DNA of 40,205 nucleotides. It comes from Candidatus Ornithomonoglobus merdipullorum (GTDB lineage: Bacteria > Bacillota > Clostridia > UBA1381). How positions within the stretch are numbered: the first letter of the stretch is position 1; the number at the start of each line of letters is the position of its first letter. The notes under the pieces are model-generated. The model saw only the letters and a list, made by a program, of their open reading frames with translations. It made no database searches and was not told the origin of the DNA. The DNA lies in assembly GCA_018714695.1 (NCBI GenBank), contig DVNB01000002.1:1-40205 (forward strand). Direction: 5' to 3'. The translations under genes and the position numbers were made by a program. Of this stretch, positions 2,943 through 30,469 are shown piece after piece.

Positions 2943-3080
2943 TTATTCCGCATCCTCAACTACGAGCGACTCCAAGCCGCTCTCTATCAAGATCTCCTTG
3001 ACCTGCTCCTTGAGCAGTCTCGGCACATCCGTGTACTGCTTCTTGCCTAAAATTATCTTCTGAGCCCAAAGCATTGCCAT
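2943..3080 (-). CDS. Small CD1375/XkdX-like phage protein
   Basis: A 45-residue protein beginning MAMLWAQKIILGKKQYTDVP and ending in a helix KEQVKEILIESGLE. Short proteins of this style (an aromatic-rich start, an 'I..GK..' turn, 'VP..LKEQV..IL') are commonly found between tail fibre and lysis genes in clostridial and bacillar phages. The strong GGAGGTG site lies 9 bases before the ATG; a GTG one codon upstream (3083) is equally possible. Function is unknown even where the family is named. Confidence 0.75.
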   Translation of the reverse strand: MAMLWAQKIILGKKQYTDVPRLLKEQVKEILIESGLESLVVEDAE

Positions 3081-3123
3081 CACCGTGTCCACCTCCTTCC
3101 CGTAGATCAATCGCAGCAGCAGC

Positions 3124-3480
3124 CTAAGCATAGACCATCATGCTCATTTCAAGCAGGCACTCCTCGAGCATTTCCATGCGTTCATTTGCCTCCTTGAGCT
3201 GTCTCTGCGTCTCGCTGAGCTGCTCTTCATGCGTCCACTTCTTGCCGTACTCCCACCATTCATCAAAGCTTGCTGTAAGCTCATCGGCGAGAGTGTCACT
3301 GTACGCATGAGTAAAGTATACCTCATCGGCTGTGTATGCCGTTATACTTTCCCCGTTTTCATTTGTGTACTGCGTCTCGGATATATTTTTACGCAGCCAT
3401 ACATCCGCGATCCCCACGTCCTCGCGGTGATTGATCTCGACCGCCTGCAATGGGCTTTCACTTTCTGTTTTTGTCAGCAT
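3124..3480 (-). CDS. Conserved phage tail-region protein of unknown function
   Basis: A 118-residue acidic protein. The first half is beta-rich (VGIADVWLRKNISETQYTNE, then AYTADEVYFTH). The second half is a coiled coil (about residues 82-112, EEQLSETQRQLKEANERMEM). The ribosome binding site is GGAG, 10 bases before the ATG, and the start overlaps the reverse transcriptase stop by 7 bp. Proteins of this shape are usual after tail fibre genes in clostridial phages, so it is more likely a structural or chaperone gene interrupted upstream by the retroelement than part of the retroelement. It does not show the four-helix, basic Avd signature. Confidence 0.7.
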   Translation of the reverse strand: MLTKTESESPLQAVEINHREDVGIADVWLRKNISETQYTNENGESITAYTADEVYFTHAYSDTLADELTASFDEWWEYGKKWTHEEQLSETQRQLKEANERMEMLEECLLEMSMMVYA

Positions 3481-4730
3481 ATATTATCAGCTCCTTTCGC
3501 TCCTATGCTTATAGTGTTGTTAGCCGCCTTAAAAGCTCCTTTATGCCTGCAAATAAAATTATATGAGTCACTGTTCTTGAGCCAGCCATAAAGTGATGAT
3601 GTCTCACGCGCAAGCCTCAGCGGGATATCTTCGCCGTCTGCCATATACCGTTCAACACTCAGTACCTTCCGCCGCAGTCTGCGAAATATACGCTTGCGTA
3701 CTGTCGTACATCTTCTGCCTATACGATAGCCCATCATGTCGATCACATCACCGTGAGTCTTGCCGTCTTTGTCATAATACTGTACTCGGAAAAGCCTCCA
3801 GCTGTCCTTCAGCTCAAGCTCCAAAAAGTCAGCCATGTACTGCCTCAGCATTTCAAAGCCCTGCCGCAGCTGATGTTTATTGCCGCCCAAGAGTAGTATA
3901 TCGTCCATATAGAAAAGAACATGATCCGCCAGTCTTACACGTTTTGTCTGCCCTCGCCTTGTCTTTGTAATTGCAAGCTGCTCTGCCGCATAATGATACG
4001 CGTACGATAAATAGTAATTACACAGATATTGTGAGAGATACGAGCCTATAGACAGGCCGCTGTCAAACTGCTTTATCAAGATCTCCATGAGCCATAGCAG
4101 TGATTCATTCTTTATATCTCTGTTCAGAAGTTCTATAAGCCGTTCCTGATCGATGCTCGGATAGCACTTCTTAACATCAGCCTTTACAGCATATTTCGTT
4201 GTCTTTGGTAATCGCCTAAGCCACTTTTCAATTGCTCTCTTGCCGTATATCTGACCTCGCCCCGGTATGCTTGCGCATTGATATACGCCTATCTTCTTAT
4301 CAAACAGCTCCTGCGCACCTCTCACGGCAATATAGTCATATATTTGATGTATCATCGACTCTCTGCCTATATCCCGCTCTTTACCGCTGTGACCGTCTAT
4401 GATGATCTTGTGCTGTACATGCGGCAGCTCCAAAGTGCGATTTTTGATATTGACGCTTATTTCAGCCGCAAGCGACTTTATATTGCCTCCGAGCCGTTCT
4501 GCCATGGCTGTGCGGCGCAGACTGTAATCTATGGCGTAGCCATCGCCGGTATTGTGCCTGTAGCTTTTAGCGCTGCATATGCGGCATACTTCGCCGCGGC
4601 TTTGCTCACCATATTTTGAGAGCAACTTATGTACCTCGACCCGCTCCCACTTACCGTCAAGGCACTCATATATGCAAGCCTCGATAAATCCGACATCTGT
4701 AATATCGACGCCTTTACAATACCTCTTCAT
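3474..4730 (-). CDS. DGR reverse transcriptase
   Basis: Copies the template repeat RNA into cDNA with frequent misincorporation opposite adenine. It has 418 residues. Motif A is KADVKKCYPSID (about 183-194, Asp185 catalytic). The motif-4 segment IGSYLSQ (228-234) is of the DGR type rather than the QG.P.SP of retrons and group II introns. The catalytic YMDD is at 274-277, followed by a GYRIG motif at about 334-338 in place of the usual 'FLGY'. The first 130 residues include a CRIC pair (Cys49, Cys52) that may bind metal; I do not recognise this extension. The ATG follows GAGG at about 7 bases and lies 205 bp past the template repeat. It is probably co-transcribed from the late tail operon. Confidence 0.95.
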   Translation of the reverse strand: MKRYCKGVDITDVGFIEACIYECLDGKWERVEVHKLLSKYGEQSRGEVCRICSAKSYRHNTGDGYAIDYSLRRTAMAERLGGNIKSLAAEISVNIKNRTLELPHVQHKIIIDGHSGKERDIGRESMIHQIYDYIAVRGAQELFDKKIGVYQCASIPGRGQIYGKRAIEKWLRRLPKTTKYAVKADVKKCYPSIDQERLIELLNRDIKNESLLWLMEILIKQFDSGLSIGSYLSQYLCNYYLSYAYHYAAEQLAITKTRRGQTKRVRLADHVLFYMDDILLLGGNKHQLRQGFEMLRQYMADFLELELKDSWRLFRVQYYDKDGKTHGDVIDMMGYRIGRRCTTVRKRIFRRLRRKVLSVERYMADGEDIPLRLARETSSLYGWLKNSDSYNFICRHKGAFKAANNTISIGAKGADNIC

Positions 4731-4934
4731 ATATAAACCTCGTTATTGTCTTTCTGTATCTAAAGGGCTTTCGGTTTGTACTACTGACCCCGCACAGCGT
4801 CCTTCTCGCAGCTGCGCCCCGTACTCCTTGCCGTTTCCGGGTTGCGGTTTCGACATTATTTTCGGCATTCCGCCGAGGCCGGAGTTTTTCTCCGAGCGAT
4901 CTCACAGGACCGCGACATAGGACGCATTTATGAT

Positions 4935-5049
4935 CAGAATTGCGCGAGCCGATATTCCAGTTGGCGTTCGACACGGCATTATTGCCGTTCCAAATGAACA
5001 GACCGGCATTGCTGCCGTTGTTCAGGTTGCCGCCGAATAGAAGCTCGTT
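4935..5049 (-). repeat. DGR template repeat (TR)
   Basis: A 115-bp sequence that matches the variable repeat at 5134-5248 except at 22 positions. All 22 are adenines in the sense (minus) strand of this copy; the other 86 non-adenine positions are identical. In the frame of the target gene it carries 12 AAY (Asn) codons, plus AGC, ATT and ATC, and every one is altered in the variable copy. AAY codons let adenine mutagenesis give many residues without stop codons. The transcript between 5104 and 4731 is the expected TR RNA. It contains a CGGAG-AAAAA-CTCCG stem-loop at 4880-4894 that may aid priming or RT binding (inference). Confidence 0.97.
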
Positions 5050-5074
5050 GCGCCCTAAGTCCCTAATTTTTATT

Positions 5075-5094
5075 GCAAGGGGAGATCCCCTTGC
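5075..5094 (-). repeat. DGR target-site hairpin downstream of the variable gene
   Basis: A perfect inverted repeat with 8-bp arms GCAAGGGG/CCCCTTGC and a 4-nt loop (ATCT on the sense strand). It lies 10 bp after the stop codon of the variable gene and 40 bp from the 3' end of the variable repeat. In the Bordetella phage BPP-1 DGR, a GC-rich hairpin of this size just past VR stimulates retrohoming. It is not followed by a T-run on either strand, so it is not a Rho-independent terminator. The role here is inferred from position and shape. Confidence 0.8.
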
Positions 5095-5104
5095 GAACCC
5101 CCGG

Positions 5105-6727
5105 CTACGCGGCTTCGCCGCTTCGCCCGCTCGCAGAAAGGCGCGAGCCGACATACCAGTAGGCGAACGACACGGCAGAAGAGCCGTACCAAAGGAACAG
5201 ACCGGCAGAGCCGCCGAAGTACAGGGAGCCGCCGAATAGAAGCTCGTGATTTGTGCCGCCGGAAATGTAATAATAGTCGCAGTAATACGTGCTCGTACTC
5301 CCTCCGACCGTTATGGGCAGCCTTACAGACGGATGCGCGGCATCACTGCCCATCTCTTTTACGTACCCGCCTGAGCTTGACAAGCTATAGCCGACTTCAA
5401 TATAGTCGGATGATACGTTTGTCGTAAACTTTGTACAATCGTAGCAAATATAAGCCTTGTAGTTGCTTATTATAACGTCACTCATGATGGTATACACGTT
5501 GCCGTATAAGCTTTCGACACCTCTGTATTTCATGGGATAGTATCCGTTAGTATTGCTCTTATAGCTGCCGCTCGTGCCCTTTACGCCGTCAGTCATGCCG
5601 GTGTACCACGGCATTGTGCTGATATAGCACTCCGTTGTTGTGTCAAAGGTATCGTCTCCGACATCGAGATATATCGCGGTATTGCTGTCATCATATGCTT
5701 CCTGCGAAAGCACACGCTTACGGTTTACTATAGAATTCATTGATGCAAGATTTCTGTCGGTGCTGCCGGAAGATGATGCGGTGCCGACTGATACGGTGCA
5801 GCCGACCGGAAACTTTGACGCATTGGAATTTGACACTATAACGCGCGTTGCGCCTGTTTCCGCAACGGTTGGATGTATTTGAAAGTTAAGATTTACGCAG
5901 CCCTGCATGATACTCTGAGAATTACGTGTCGCAAACTCCACACAGAACATATCCTGCAAAAAGGCTACCTCCTTCGTGGTCATGCCGCAATATTGATTTC
6001 CCTTCTTGCGTATCTCTGTAAGCTGCGTATTGTGCGAAAGCCCGGCAGTCGTCGCGTTCCGGTTCGTGTACGTGTTATGAGCCGTCGGCACTCCGGAAAT
6101 CGATGCAGCTAAACTGTCGGAGTTATATCCCATCTCATACGCCGCTATGTAAGCATACCGCTTGAGCCGCCCGTCAGGTGCTACAAAGATGCCGTAAGGA
6201 CACCATCCCTCGTTCGGCCGGTATATATCGGTGATCTGTATCTCCTCATGTGTATCTGTAATGATATACTTGAAAAATCTCGTGCTCCAACGCACATACA
6301 CATCTCCGTTCGAGCCGTCCACGCTGAAAGCAGGATCGCCCTCTATTGCCGTTTCGACAAATTCGCCGTCGCTTGTAAGATGGCCGTTCACGCGTGTAAA
6401 CATAAAGCACGGCTCCAGGTCAAAATCATTTGCGGCCGCAGTCTCATCGGTAGAAGCTGCCGCCGTCAGCCCGACCGCCGCTTCGGTGCGTTCTCCCGCC
6501 GGAGCGCTTGAGTATGACGCAAGCGGGAATTTTACGCCGTATATCTTGCCGGATGCGGTTATTGGTCTGTCGTATGACAGCCGCTCGATCGCATCCGCCG
6601 CACCGAGCACCGACTGCACACTTTCGTCAAGGCTCTCCTCGACCGCCTCTGCAGCAGCTTCCGCTGCTGCGGCAACGACTGCGTTTGTTTCCTCAGGGCT
6701 AAGCCCTTTTCCCATATCATAACCCAT
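5105..6727 (-). CDS. DGR-diversified tail receptor-binding protein (C-type-lectin-like C-terminus)
   Basis: A 540-residue late tail protein whose C-terminal 47 residues contain the variable repeat. The N-terminal 60 residues are Ala/Glu-rich and helical, probably a tail-attachment trimer. The C-terminal part has a GVESLYGNVY motif (about residue 405), like the 'GIENLWGNV' core of formylglycine-enzyme-type C-type lectin folds used by DGR variable proteins. The VR-encoded end is GLFLWYGSSAVSFAYWYVGS, where the W, G, A and V scaffold is fixed and the diversified sites are S/Y/F/L. The ATG at 6727 is preferred (AGAGGTGG 5 bases upstream) over a GTG 9 bp earlier. It probably binds the host surface at the fibre tip. 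Confidence 0.93.
   Translation of the reverse strand: MGYDMGKGLSPEETNAVVAAAAEAAAEAVEESLDESVQSVLGAADAIERLSYDRPITASGKIYGVKFPLASYSSAPAGERTEAAVGLTAAASTDETAAANDFDLEPCFMFTRVNGHLTSDGEFVETAIEGDPAFSVDGSNGDVYVRWSTRFFKYIITDTHEEIQITDIYRPNEGWCPYGIFVAPDGRLKRYAYIAAYEMGYNSDSLAASISGVPTAHNTYTNRNATTAGLSHNTQLTEIRKKGNQYCGMTTKEVAFLQDMFCVEFATRNSQSIMQGCVNLNFQIHPTVAETGATRVIVSNSNASKFPVGCTVSVGTASSSGSTDRNLASMNSIVNRKRVLSQEAYDDSNTAIYLDVGDDTFDTTTECYISTMPWYTGMTDGVKGTSGSYKSNTNGYYPMKYRGVESLYGNVYTIMSDVIISNYKAYICYDCTKFTTNVSSDYIEVGYSLSSSGGYVKEMGSDAAHPSVRLPITVGGSTSTYYCDYYYISGGTNHELLFGGSLYFGGSAGLFLWYGSSAVSFAYWYVGSRLSASGRSGEAA
5134..5248 (-). repeat. DGR variable repeat (VR)
   Basis: The diversified copy, inside the last codons (residues 494-531) of the receptor-binding gene. 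Compared with the template: 13 A-to-T, 7 A-to-C and 2 A-to-G changes on the sense strand, all at first or second codon positions. They change 15 residues to S, Y, F, H, L, V or G. The 3' part has an adenine-free block GGCTCGCGC shared with the template. It is followed by GC-rich sequence (with a GCGGC-TTC-GCCGC inverted repeat at 5109-5121) where the initiation-of-mutagenic-homology element would lie. Confidence 0.97.
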
Positions 6728-6729
6728 TG

Positions 6730-7023
6730 TTACCACCTCTTCTCCGTAATGCTTATCTCACCTGCAGACTGCACATATATGTATACCGTGCCCGCTCCCG
6801 CGAAGTCCGGCCTATACCCGTTATATGCGCCTCCTGCCGGGATGCTGCTGTATTTCCCAACGCCTTCGCTTGATGTGAAATCGCCCGTTGTATTGATGTA
6901 TATATCATCTCCGGTAGCATTTCGTATGTCGAGCACCTTGCATAACTCATACTTTACGGCATAGGTATCCGCCGCTTCTGCGATTATCGTCATATCCGGT
7001 GATGTGCTTGTTATTTCAATCAT
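6730..7023 (-). CDS. Small tail-fibre-associated protein
   Basis: A 97-residue beta-rich protein (MIEITSTSPDMTIIAEA..., a YKYELCKVLDIRNATGDDIYIN-like middle and a VYIYVQSAGEISITEKRW end). GGAAGGAG precedes the ATG. It sits between the tail fibre and the DGR variable protein, 2 bp upstream of the latter's start. The size, all-beta look and place suggest an adaptor or connector between the fibre and the receptor-binding protein, or a small decoration protein. No family is recognised. Confidence 0.75.
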   Translation of the reverse strand: MIEITSTSPDMTIIAEAADTYAVKYELCKVLDIRNATGDDIYINTTGDFTSSEGVGKYSSIPAGGAYNGYRPDFAGAGTVYIYVQSAGEISITEKRW

Positions 7024-7038: not shown

Positions 7039-8925
7039 TTATGTTTCCTGCAGTGTAATTGTTGCCTTTTGATATGATTCATAGCTGCCCTCTTCGATTT
7101 CGCCGCTTGCATCCGCCCAAGGTATAGTATCCAAGGACTGAGAGACATAAGAGCTTTGTGAAGAACCGATATATAAGCAATTATCTATAACTATTTCGGT
7201 TACAGGTGTTACGATCAACTGATTTGGATTATAACCGATTATAGATCCGGACATATTCTGTTGTCCGTTGCCGTATTGAACATATGAGCTATCCGAATTC
7301 GTTAGAGTCCCATTGTTTACTGTTGTACACGAAACCCATCTGTACCTGTAATAAGGATACTCACTATGCCCGTTATTCGTTATCTTGTATATAACTATCG
7401 TCAGTGAATTTATTTCATCTCCGAGACGGGCATTCGTGATCTGTTGTTTGACCTGTTCTATCAGCTCTTGTACAAAAGCTGTCGTTGCAAGTCTGGTTGA
7501 ATTATCGCTTATGTCCGGAGTCGGTGCTTTTGGCGTGCCGGAGAAAGTAGGTGAATTTGTATTCGCTTTACCATCCCAATTGGATATATTGCTCGAGGAT
7601 ATCCCATCCAGCACCGATTTGTTGCTATGCGTATGCCGCTGTGAATATGCCGCATCCCAATTGCTCATTTTTTCGGATGATACTCCGTCAAGCACTGTTT
7701 TATTTTCGTGAGTATGAGCTTTCTCCGAGAGCTCCGGTATTTCCGTAACAGCAGTGCTGCCGATCCGTACCGGAGTCCCGTTTATGTAGATATACTCATT
7801 CCTATAACCATCTTCCTCAACAATGTATCGGATATTGTTCGATGGTGTATCTCCAAGCGTTACCGACAGCGTGTTTGCGATCTTCAAATTTGACTGTGAC
7901 CATGTGTATACCTCAATTGCTGTTATTTCCGCACAGGTGTAATCGAGATAATCAAGTTCGCCCGACATATAGGATGTTCCGGTATCCTTGTTCTTTATTT
8001 CATATGTGACAGCTTTCAGTTTATTATCAAACAAAGCGCTGAAATGCAACCATGTATCAAGCGGTACAGTAGAAGCAGCATCGCCGTTTAACAGGAATGT
8101 ATCACCGTCTTTTGTCCCGAAATAGATCGCTACGCCTACCGTATCATAGGTTATTTTACTTGATTCTCCCGGACGAACTGCAAGATTCACGAGCGACACA
8201 TACCATCTGCTGCCCGCTGGTATAAAAACATCAAATTCAATAGATGCCTTATTCACATTGGAAAGGATTCCGGACAGGTCAGCCGCCGCCATGCCGTATT
8301 TATTCCCGGCATTGCTTGCACTGTCTATCTCAAGCCGGTCGTTTTCCTGATCATATTCCACTGTGCATCGTTCAATACCTTCGTAAACAATGTCTTCGGC
8401 AAAATCATATTCGGTGCATGTCGTAGGAAGCGACGACACTTCCCGCTGTTCGAGTTTGTCCTTGATATCGTCCCATGTAACATTCGTTATACCCGTTATA
8501 TCTATTGACACATTTTCCGTTGCGCCTATGTCCACATATATGTCGATATCCTGTGTCACCGGATAACTGCCGCTGTAGGTCGTGATATAGTCGGCATTGT
8601 CGCCGTAATTGCTGTAAGCATATAATATTTCTCCGTCGTCCGGATCGTACGCCATAATACCGACCTCACGAAGGTAAAAATCCTTATCCGCCGAATAGAT
8701 GCGTACTGCCATTCGGAATGTGCCGTCCGGCATGACCTGTTTCTCAAGTGTATCGACCGTTGCATCCACCGGACTTACAAGCTGTGTTATGTCCAATGTA
8801 TCCTCCGTGATATATCCGTCACCGACTGCAACGCGTGTAAACCTTAGCGGTGCGCCGTTATGTACTTTGGCATACAGAGCTTTTCCGGCTTCCGTTAAAT
8901 GCATTGCAGGAATTGCATAAGCCAT
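7039..8925 (-). CDS. Tail fibre / tail-collar fibre protein (gpH-like N-terminus)
   Basis: A 628-residue fibre. Residues 1-150 match the tail-collar N-terminal domain of P2 gpH-like fibres: MHLTEAGKALYAKVHNGAPL, then FTRVAVGDG and DFYLREVGIMAYDPDDGEI. The middle (about 180-365) looks like a concanavalin-like jelly roll. At about 405-455 there are two 'HTH.NK.VLDG.SS..MSNWD' repeats, a fibrous module with an HxH pattern that may bind metal. Then TFSGTPKAPTPDISDNSTRLATTAF-like segments are of the kind seen in trimeric fibres. The start overlaps the gpI stop by one base. It likely connects the baseplate to the receptor-binding protein. Confidence 0.9.
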   Translation of the reverse strand: MAYAIPAMHLTEAGKALYAKVHNGAPLRFTRVAVGDGYITEDTLDITQLVSPVDATVDTLEKQVMPDGTFRMAVRIYSADKDFYLREVGIMAYDPDDGEILYAYSNYGDNADYITTYSGSYPVTQDIDIYVDIGATENVSIDITGITNVTWDDIKDKLEQREVSSLPTTCTEYDFAEDIVYEGIERCTVEYDQENDRLEIDSASNAGNKYGMAAADLSGILSNVNKASIEFDVFIPAGSRWYVSLVNLAVRPGESSKITYDTVGVAIYFGTKDGDTFLLNGDAASTVPLDTWLHFSALFDNKLKAVTYEIKNKDTGTSYMSGELDYLDYTCAEITAIEVYTWSQSNLKIANTLSVTLGDTPSNNIRYIVEEDGYRNEYIYINGTPVRIGSTAVTEIPELSEKAHTHENKTVLDGVSSEKMSNWDAAYSQRHTHSNKSVLDGISSSNISNWDGKANTNSPTFSGTPKAPTPDISDNSTRLATTAFVQELIEQVKQQITNARLGDEINSLTIVIYKITNNGHSEYPYYRYRWVSCTTVNNGTLTNSDSSYVQYGNGQQNMSGSIIGYNPNQLIVTPVTEIVIDNCLYIGSSQSSYVSQSLDTIPWADASGEIEEGSYESYQKATITLQET

Positions 8926-29656: not shown

Positions 29657-30469
29657 TTACTCCTTTCTCATCTTGCAGAGGTATATGCGCACATATGCCC
29701 CGTCCTGCCTGTAGTCTGTCTCGCCGTCAGCATTCTTTTGGAATCCATACGGCTCTATGTATGTTACCGTATACCCGGGATAAAGCGGCTCAAGATCCCG
29801 CTCGGTGAGCTCGCCCTTGATGATCTTCTTAGCCGTTTCATGTGATATACGCCCGGTGCGCTCCGATACCTTGGGACGCTTCAATCCTTTGCTCTGTATC
29901 CATCTCTTGACCTTGCCCTCGATTTCCGGCTTGTCCGGATTGCATACAAGATACTTCGCAAGCCCCTTCATACCTTCCTCGTTCCATTCAAGCTTGAATG
30001 TCCGCGCTGTGCCGTACTCCCAAAGATCTTCAAGCTTTTCTCTTATCTCGCCGCGTCTTGACGGATCAGGAATATTCATCGTTATGTGTGCATGGAACTT
30101 ACCTCTCTTGATACCTTTCTCGATCACCCCGACGTACTTGAGCTTGACATCAAATTCCTTGCCGTAGTATGTACGCACCCTCCGAAGATATCTCTGTACA
30201 CATGCAAGAGCTTCCTCATAGGTCTCCGGGGGAATATCGAAGCTGAGCTGCATCTCAACATCCGAGGATGTGAAATTGTTATCTATGAGCATCCGGAACT
30301 TTTCCTGTGCATGAAAATCATTGAGTTTCTTCTGCGTCTCGGAAGATGGCTTGAGTTTCTTGCTCCTGCTGTTCGCTTTCTTGTATCCCGGGAAAAGGAG
30401 CACGGTCCCGTAGTTGCCATGCCAGTATCTTTTTTCGATCTGTCTGCATCTGCCCGATCTCTTTTCCAT
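29657..30469 (-). CDS. HUH-type replication-associated protein (rolling-circle Rep/G2P-like)
   Basis: A 270-residue protein. 'GKFHAHITMN' (His126-x-His128) is the metal-binding HUH motif, and 'GLAKYLVCNPDKP' holds the likely nucleophilic Tyr173; the preceding 'VKLKYVGVIEKGIKRG' is the usual strand of rolling-circle replication-associated proteins. It probably nicks one strand at an origin and starts replication. No helicase, primase or polymerase is encoded in the window, so this is the only recognisable initiator. The ATG follows GGAGCACGGGG. The region directly upstream has the stem-loops expected of an origin. Confidence 0.82.
   Translation of the reverse strand: MEKRSGRCRQIEKRYWHGNYGTVLLFPGYKKANSRSKKLKPSSETQKKLNDFHAQEKFRMLIDNNFTSSDVEMQLSFDIPPETYEEALACVQRYLRRVRTYYGKEFDVKLKYVGVIEKGIKRGKFHAHITMNIPDPSRRGEIREKLEDLWEYGTARTFKLEWNEEGMKGLAKYLVCNPDKPEIEGKVKRWIQSKGLKRPKVSERTGRISHETAKKIIKGELTERDLEPLYPGYTVTYIEPYGFQKNADGETDYRQDGAYVRIYLCKMRKE

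Follow-up and report, generated by a model that had tools for sequence, protein, structure and literature searches.

The window analysed here, positions 1 to 40,205 of contig DVNB01000002.1 of Candidatus Ornithomonoglobus merdipullorum (40,205 nucleotides, nts), carries a diversity-generating retroelement (DGR) of a contractile-tailed phage, a reading to which we give a probability of about 0.96. Its parts lie on the minus strand, where a tail-protein gene, the target, ends in a variable repeat (VR) and is followed by a template repeat (TR) and a gene for a DGR-type reverse transcriptase (RT). Overlapping the RT stop is a small open reading frame (ORF), here called p118, whose product is most likely a partner of the tail protein and less likely a cofactor of the RT. 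The DGR machinery itself is of an ordinary, known kind, and the p118 question is the one most worth pursuing. By analogy with other DGRs, the RT would reverse-transcribe the TR RNA and misincorporate bases opposite adenines, the cDNA would replace the matching 3′ end of the neighboring tail-protein gene, and tail proteins with new binding surfaces would be the outcome. In this scheme the need for the RT, the site of homing (the VR 3′ end), and receptor binding are taken over from the DGR literature. The DGR assignment, first proposed in a sequence-only reading of the window, is supported by adenine-only TR/VR differences, the RT, the gene order, the C-terminal position of the VR, the predicted target fold, and homologous cassettes; these features, like the hairpins past the VR and the nearly adenine-only VR differences among relatives, can be read from the DNA itself.

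Adenine-only divergence of the two repeats

In a gapless alignment of 115 bp, TR and VR differ at 22 sites, every one of them a template adenine (22 of 29), while none of the 86 other bases differs. If 22 mismatches were scattered randomly across the aligned 115 bp, the probability that all of them hit adenines would be 7e-18 (hypergeometric). One of the 22 lies at the repeat boundary, on the outermost aligned base; without it there is a core of 114 bp with 21/21 mismatches at adenines. The pair was also found independently by a separate repeat search, and the recomputed boundaries and counts are identical to those of the sequence-only reading. Template adenines are replaced by T at 13 sites, by C at 7, and by G at 2; 15 of the changes fall on first and 7 on second codon positions, all at non-synonymous sites, so that 15 residues are altered, and each of the 12 asparagine codons of the template is changed in the VR. 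Here, too, a recount reproduced the earlier figures throughout. The residues now standing at those 12 codons are four serines, four tyrosines, two phenylalanines, one leucine, and one histidine. Past the VR, 8–9 codons (ASGRSGEAA) remain before the target stop.

Since 0/86 non-adenine sites differ, TR and VR have not drifted apart, which suggests that the last copying from one to the other was recent relative to ordinary mutation in the lineage. The 3′ ends of the two repeats likewise differ at adenines only, with no fixed non-adenine differences marking the initiation of mutagenic homing elements (IMH and IMH*). A third copy of the TR was absent from the genome assembly that includes the window, here called the host genome (2.65 Mb, 86% complete).

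Shared templates and distinct variable repeats among relatives

Related cassettes were gathered from IMG/VR by RT similarity, as the best 80 of 422 confirmed candidates, the closest of which has an RT 47% identical to that of the window; eight genome loci obtained in the same way include ones labeled Hespellia, Gallispira, Megasphaera, and an Akkermansia metagenome-assembled genome (MAG). The window TR, written as a 51-base pattern with most adenines as N, had no exact match in viral contigs. A high-scoring adenine-biased TR/VR pair occurs in 70 of the 80 IMG/VR loci, whereas nine are without one and L066 has a low-scoring pair only; among the relatives in the RT alignment such a pair was seen in 8 of 10, with none for L014 and L015. 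Taken over all 93 loci where a pair was found, a set that contains the window and some duplicate phages, differences fall on 1415 of 2246 adenine sites and on 34 of 7618 other sites, totals that are no independent proof because the detector itself demands that at least 85% of mismatches lie at adenines.

Independent of that detector are the window count and a direct comparison of VR with VR. The sequence-only reading had suggested a search for the same TR with other VRs, and, because no close relative of the window phage was found, this comparison was made on its kin. Seventeen pairs of loci have identical TRs: seven of them also have identical VRs, and the VRs of the other ten are distinct, with 137 of the differences lying on template adenines and 2 on other bases. 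Dropping L101/L102, which duplicates L044/L102, leaves nine differing pairs with 120 template-adenine and 2 other differences. L027 and L028, two phage contigs named with one and the same genome number, are identical in the TR and in the 300 nts before the VR, and their VRs differ at four template adenines only. The Hespellia stercorisuis phage locus (L044/L101; strain DSM 15480 for L101) and a Hespellia MAG (L102) likewise share the TR and the preceding 300 nts, and differ at 17 template adenines and at no other VR site, which makes them a good natural test pair. As a separate observation, A-to-G changes are rarer in the window VR than in the 92 other loci (2/22 vs. 597/1394, P 0.0007, duplicates counted); selection for surfaces rich in tyrosine and serine, or a different error spectrum, could explain this.

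Target protein and reverse transcriptase

The target has a likely ATG start at 6727, with an open frame that extends to 6736 when a GTG start is allowed. Its best family is phrog_17147, of function not known (E 7.7e-93), and it also matches phrog_5302, annotated as tail protein (E 5.3e-38). DGR variable proteins resembling TaqVP, from a Thermus aquaticus element, have a C-type-lectin-type fold, and the target appears to belong with them. An AlphaFold2 (AF2) model built from an alignment of 33 targets has a mean predicted local distance difference test (pLDDT) score of 88.1; when the whole model, VR part included, rather than the VR part alone, was compared with the PDB by Foldseek, three chains passed E 0.001, all of them TaqVP (5vf4, E 1.5e-7, probability 1.00). 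TaqVP is thus the only solved structure to match at E 0.001 or better, at 12–13% identity and a TM-score of 0.45 by target length and 0.33 by query length; Mtd of BPP-1 (1yu0) stands further down the same list at E 0.46. The assignment of a C-type-lectin-type fold to TaqVP and like proteins is made in PMC6328139, and the model comparison supports the target as a variable protein of this type. From the match to the tail family phrog_5302 and the adjoining tail fibre gene, we infer that the target probably binds a receptor.

The RT frame is intact and its gene adjoins the TR. Both motifs named in the sequence-only reading, IGSYLSQ and YMDD, are present; IGSYLSQ has the form GxxxSQ in place of QGxxxSP, which we take to be the DGR-type motif. 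Family matches agree (PHROG "Reverse transcriptase", E 2.9e-65; Pfam RVT_1, E 3.7e-10).

Hairpins and spacer

Two hairpins lie between VR and TR (Table 1), and the DNA fold of 5050–5133, which holds both, has a z of −1.89. Stems in this position are a property of the wider group: in the 80 nts after the VR the longest perfect stem averages 7.0 bp over the 93 TR/VR loci, against 4.5 bp in control windows, and perfect stems of at least 8 bp occur in 37/93 loci as opposed to 28/1860 control windows. In BPP-1 a hairpin after the VR is required for efficient homing, as Guo et al. (2011; PMC3240598) showed, and the same source gives phage DGR hairpins as having 7–10 bp stems and GRNA loops, 4–34 bp from the VR. 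The stem of the longer window hairpin falls within this range. According to PMC12875486, the RNA between TR and RT of BPP-1 recruits the RT; by analogy, the TR-to-RT spacer of the window may play a similar role. An Rfam scan of the window returned zero matches at the gathering threshold.

Several observations weigh against the DGR reading or its simplest form, beyond the circularity of the detector totals noted above. The 8-bp hairpin has the loop ATCT, not GRNA, and lies 39 nts from the VR, outside the 4–34 given in PMC3240598; the predicted fold of the spacer is no more stable than shuffles (z −0.93); and 4 of 33 locus pairs with TRs of 90–99% identity have one or two VR differences at shared non-adenine sites. 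In addition, the bAvd model PF22296, which does find the accessory protein Avd of BPP-1, has no match in the host genome or in any of 47 related virus records (possibly fragments). The claim of the sequence-only reading that all parts are present therefore holds for RT, TR, and VR, which stand in the usual order, and not for Avd. The departures in hairpin loop and spacing would fit a true DGR whose last homing was recent but which has since become inactive in this phage, a variant compatible with the DGR assignment. We regard such silence as unlikely: the RT frame is intact at 418 amino acids with its YMDD, the p118 and target frames are open, and non-adenine differences between the repeats are entirely lacking. 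Far less probable still, to the point of being negligible, is an origin by chance or by another adenine-biased process, such as a deaminase or ordinary gene duplication. A single deaminase is not expected to turn A into T, C, and G, as has happened here; with no change at the 86 other sites, and with an RT beside the repeat, such an origin is untenable on the TR/VR count.

A probe with PF05635 in place of PF22296 was tried and dropped because it misses the Avd of BPP-1; it matched 2 of 37 records (the host genome once, on contig C5, and G077 in four places) and 0 of the 32 virus records. The host match, C5:31780–32094, lies on another contig than the window and is a 23S-rRNA-IVP family protein (PF05635) left unmatched by the bAvd model. 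That family is said in PMC10053308 to be kin of Avd.

The p118 family

An iterated profile finds the p118 family in 79 of the 80 IMG/VR RT loci, whose RTs form 50 clusters at 80% identity. It lies directly after the RT in 75 loci, mostly in frames that overlap the RT end or lie near it, and between target and TR in the other four; L068, the sole locus without it, has an RT frame of just 321 nts. All seven genome loci whose sequence runs far enough also hold the family (an eighth is truncated), as do 7 of 13 other loci, a set that counts the window; the misses there are LBR48, L006, L007, L017, L019, and L021, although L006 reaches E 1e-4 in a scan with further phage records. Against six further RT-bearing phage records, chosen from 57, the model matched L182 (E 1.7e-18), Arawn (2.5e-6), and, weakly, Epona (0.014); L183 reached E 0.19, and Perkons and cr56_1 were unmatched. 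BPP-1 gave no significant match. In Toutatis the RT is cut by the stretch end, and the region downstream of it was outside the comparison. The iterated model is partly circular, being built on its own hits, yet a first-round model made from 12 sequences had already picked up 71 open frames; in its final form the model matches 100 times in 100 loci, out of 8,826 open frames.

Searches that did not start from the RT gave the same association. Scans started from p118 found an RT beside 16/16 confirmed loci (6 contigs new), and a second such scan with 10 confirmed loci added one new contig, also with an RT. Within the order, p118 occurs in 4 of 95 genomes (the host included), with an RT beside all four; in a phylum-wide sample it was found in the host genome only (1/398). 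From the target side, all 28 target-homologue loci with downstream sequence, 6 of them on new contigs, hold both p118 and RT, and five more end at the target. A tblastn search of 50,697 phage records with p118 returned no match, a search too insensitive to show absence, because five phage records (L010–L014) hold p118 by profile and one of them was found with another member as the query.

The predicted structure of p118 (pLDDT 94.8) consists of four strands followed by helices, the last one long and C-terminal. Avd, by comparison, is a four-helix bundle, and no Avd family is among the Pfam or PHROG matches of p118. Foldseek against the PDB gave a best match of E 0.15, and against BFVD three phage proteins with uninformative names (E 1.8e-4 to 4.4e-4). 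Two candidate wider families were rejected. XkdW has no Pfam match to p118 and a profile comparison probability of 0.4–1%, a weak test with two XkdW sequences only. For DUF4376/phrog_1348, the six places where phrog_1348 occurs in 299 genomes match from position 44 of the profile onward, and in the surrounding loci (~3 kb) the best E-values reached are 0.035 for the p118 model and 0.15 for the RT model. The long p118 of L003 (7256–8014) does match phrog_1348 and, like that of L111 (4884–5705), is a relative with a CBM5/12 or DUF4376 extension at the C-terminus.

In L032, L040, L069, and L100, where p118 and another small ORF precede the TR and follow the target, not the RT, the TR–RT unit appears to have changed its place with respect to the tail module. 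The next small ORF past p118 looks similar by eye in many relatives, and is XkdX by Pfam in Epona and Arawn. The phage oengus offers a further vantage point: no RT was found in the 50,000 of its 58,391 bases that were read, and a 107-amino-acid protein follows its tail fibre gene (PHROG). This protein matches the C-terminal ~40 residues of p118 and its relatives (hidden Markov model E 1.2e-6 alone and 0.0022 in the scanned set; hhalign probability 88%), and precedes a small phrog_1382 protein that by eye resembles the CD1375-like ORF of the window. The match is suggestive only, as the region is helical and may be a coiled coil.

A literature search found no description of a p118-like protein, an unnamed family being unsearchable by name. 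Wu et al. reportedly described two new DGR accessory genes in 2018 (Nucleic Acids Res.), one of them an unnamed conserved hypothetical that may be p118, so that no priority is claimed for the p118 family. One suggested DGR protein without a Pfam family is mentioned in PMC10053308.

Possible functions of p118

Two roles for p118 have to be weighed, and genomic linkage is the natural point of departure. The constancy with which p118 accompanies the RT across 50 RT clusters, the closeness or overlap of the two frames, the RT beside every confirmed locus of the p118 scans that was checked and beside all four genome copies, and the failure of bAvd to appear in the related virus records when it is found in BPP-1, would all fit a DGR accessory protein that replaces Avd as RT cofactor in an Avd-free lineage. 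We nevertheless consider this role doubtful. Of the pattern matches in the two p118-started scans, only 16 out of 133 and 10 out of 170 were confirmed, and certain remoter DGR RTs have no p118 next to them (LBR48, with L006 below threshold). In four loci p118 lies between target and TR, in each directly after the target; the C-terminal DUF4376 or CBM5/12 extensions of some members are odd for an RT cofactor, and the predicted mixture of strands and helices is not the fold of Avd. In the window, the CD1375-like ORF and the holin come after p118, as is typical where a tail module closes.

These same observations favor p118 as a partner of the diversified tail protein (an assembly factor, a cap, or a co-fibre) without a role in mutagenesis, which we judge the probable function, if by no wide measure of certainty. 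The lean comes from oengus, where no RT was found and a protein with a p118-like C-terminal end occupies the same slot. That match covers the last 40 or so residues only, likely a coiled-coil region, and the N-terminal domain of p118 was not seen without an RT in the p118-started and genome scans. Nor was there an RT-less target homologue among the 28 loci; since all 28 hold both genes, linkage of p118 to the target and linkage to the RT are inseparable there, and the constant company of p118 and RT at these loci fits a fibre partner as well. Likewise doubtful is the more specific proposal of a large Avd-free lineage of phage DGRs with p118 as its dedicated accessory protein, one that would load the RT or direct homing as Avd does elsewhere. 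What could matter beyond this window is the existence of an Avd-free lineage with a conserved, unnamed companion, a concrete candidate, with the tail-partner role as the null hypothesis, for the way in which DGRs without Avd work, a matter that PMC5883640 and PMC12875486 leave open.

Genomic context

On the minus strand the cassette runs from the tail fibre gene through a small ORF to the target with its VR, the two hairpins, TR, spacer, RT, p118, the CD1375-like ORF, a phrog_4105 ORF, holin, and amidase (Table 1). Upstream of it in the window lie baseplate, tape measure, tail sheath, head protease, portal, and terminase genes (PHROG or family matches), and the presence of the tail sheath, tape measure, baseplate, portal, and terminase families identifies the carrier as a contractile-tailed phage. 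Two further genes are of separate interest: a replication initiation protein at 29657–30469 (phrog_3584, with a weaker match to a rolling-circle type initiator), here in a tailed phage, and a Dam-type adenine methyltransferase at 578–1345, beyond the lysis genes.

Table 1. Features of the retroelement and its neighborhood, in window coordinates
Feature	Coordinates	Strand	Basis
Tail fibre gene	7039–8925	−	phrog_7037
Small ORF between tail fibre gene and target	6730–7023	−	
Target gene, tail protein of ~540 amino acids	5105–6727	−	PHROG matches, AF2 model, Foldseek
Variable repeat (VR), 3′ end of target gene	5134–5248	−	repeat alignment
Short hairpin GCGGC-GAA-GCCGC, 5-bp stem, 12 nts past VR	5109–5121	−	DNA fold of 5050–5133
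Hairpin, 8-bp stem and 4-nt loop, 39 nts past VR; candidate homing hairpin/cruciform	5075–5094	−	stem search, DNA fold
Template repeat (TR), between target and RT	4935–5049	−	repeat alignment
TR-to-RT spacer	4731–4934	−	RNA fold prediction
DGR reverse transcriptase, 418 amino acids, IGSYLSQ and YMDD	3474–4730	−	motifs, PHROG, Pfam
p118, ORF of 118 amino acids, 7-nt overlap with RT stop	3124–3480	−	ORF, profile, model
CD1375-like small ORF after p118	2943–3131	−	E 2.2e-5, 24.8 bits, under the Pfam cut-off of 27
ORF after CD1375-like ORF	2556–2927	−	phrog_4105
Holin	2303–2584	−	
Amidase	1391–2293	−	

Comparison with known diversity-generating retroelements

DGRs of gut phages that target tail proteins are well known (PMC8144416, PMC11792537, PMC5883640), and more than 30,000 DGRs are analyzed in PMC8144416 alone. 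The window element shares with the phage DGR clades 1, 4, and 6 described there (Roux et al., 2021) a phage carrier, a tail-protein target, a C-terminal VR, and at least 75% of mismatches at adenines. A close comparison is BPP-1 (mtd-avd-TR-brt), which has, like the window, a tail gene that ends in the VR, a TR between target and RT, the RT downstream, a hairpin after the VR (PMC3240598), and, with the same detector, all 17 of 17 TR/VR mismatches at adenines. The RTs of the two are 25.6% identical over 61% of the query. They part ways in the accessory gene: BPP-1 has avd between VR and TR, whereas none was found in the window, which has p118 after the RT instead.

Avd, common among DGRs without defining them, co-occurs with 62% of DGR RTs (PMC8934634), and alternative accessory factors for DGRs are mentioned in PMC12875486. 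Closest in kind are the Avd-free DGRs of Faecalibacterium phages in PMC5883640, which reports Avd in just two of its phages and proposes "another small protein" for the others. Mushu, which has Avd, and Taranis differ from the window in giving no significant match to the p118 model. Epona, with an RT 28% identical to that of the window, shows, as in the window, a small ORF whose frame runs over the end of the RT gene, its match to the p118 model (E 0.014) being below significance. In the Butyrivibrio phage Arawn the likeness goes further: its RT is 34% identical to the window RT over 63% of the query, the ORF after it matches the p118 model at E 2.5e-6, and 9/9 of its TR/VR mismatches are at adenines.

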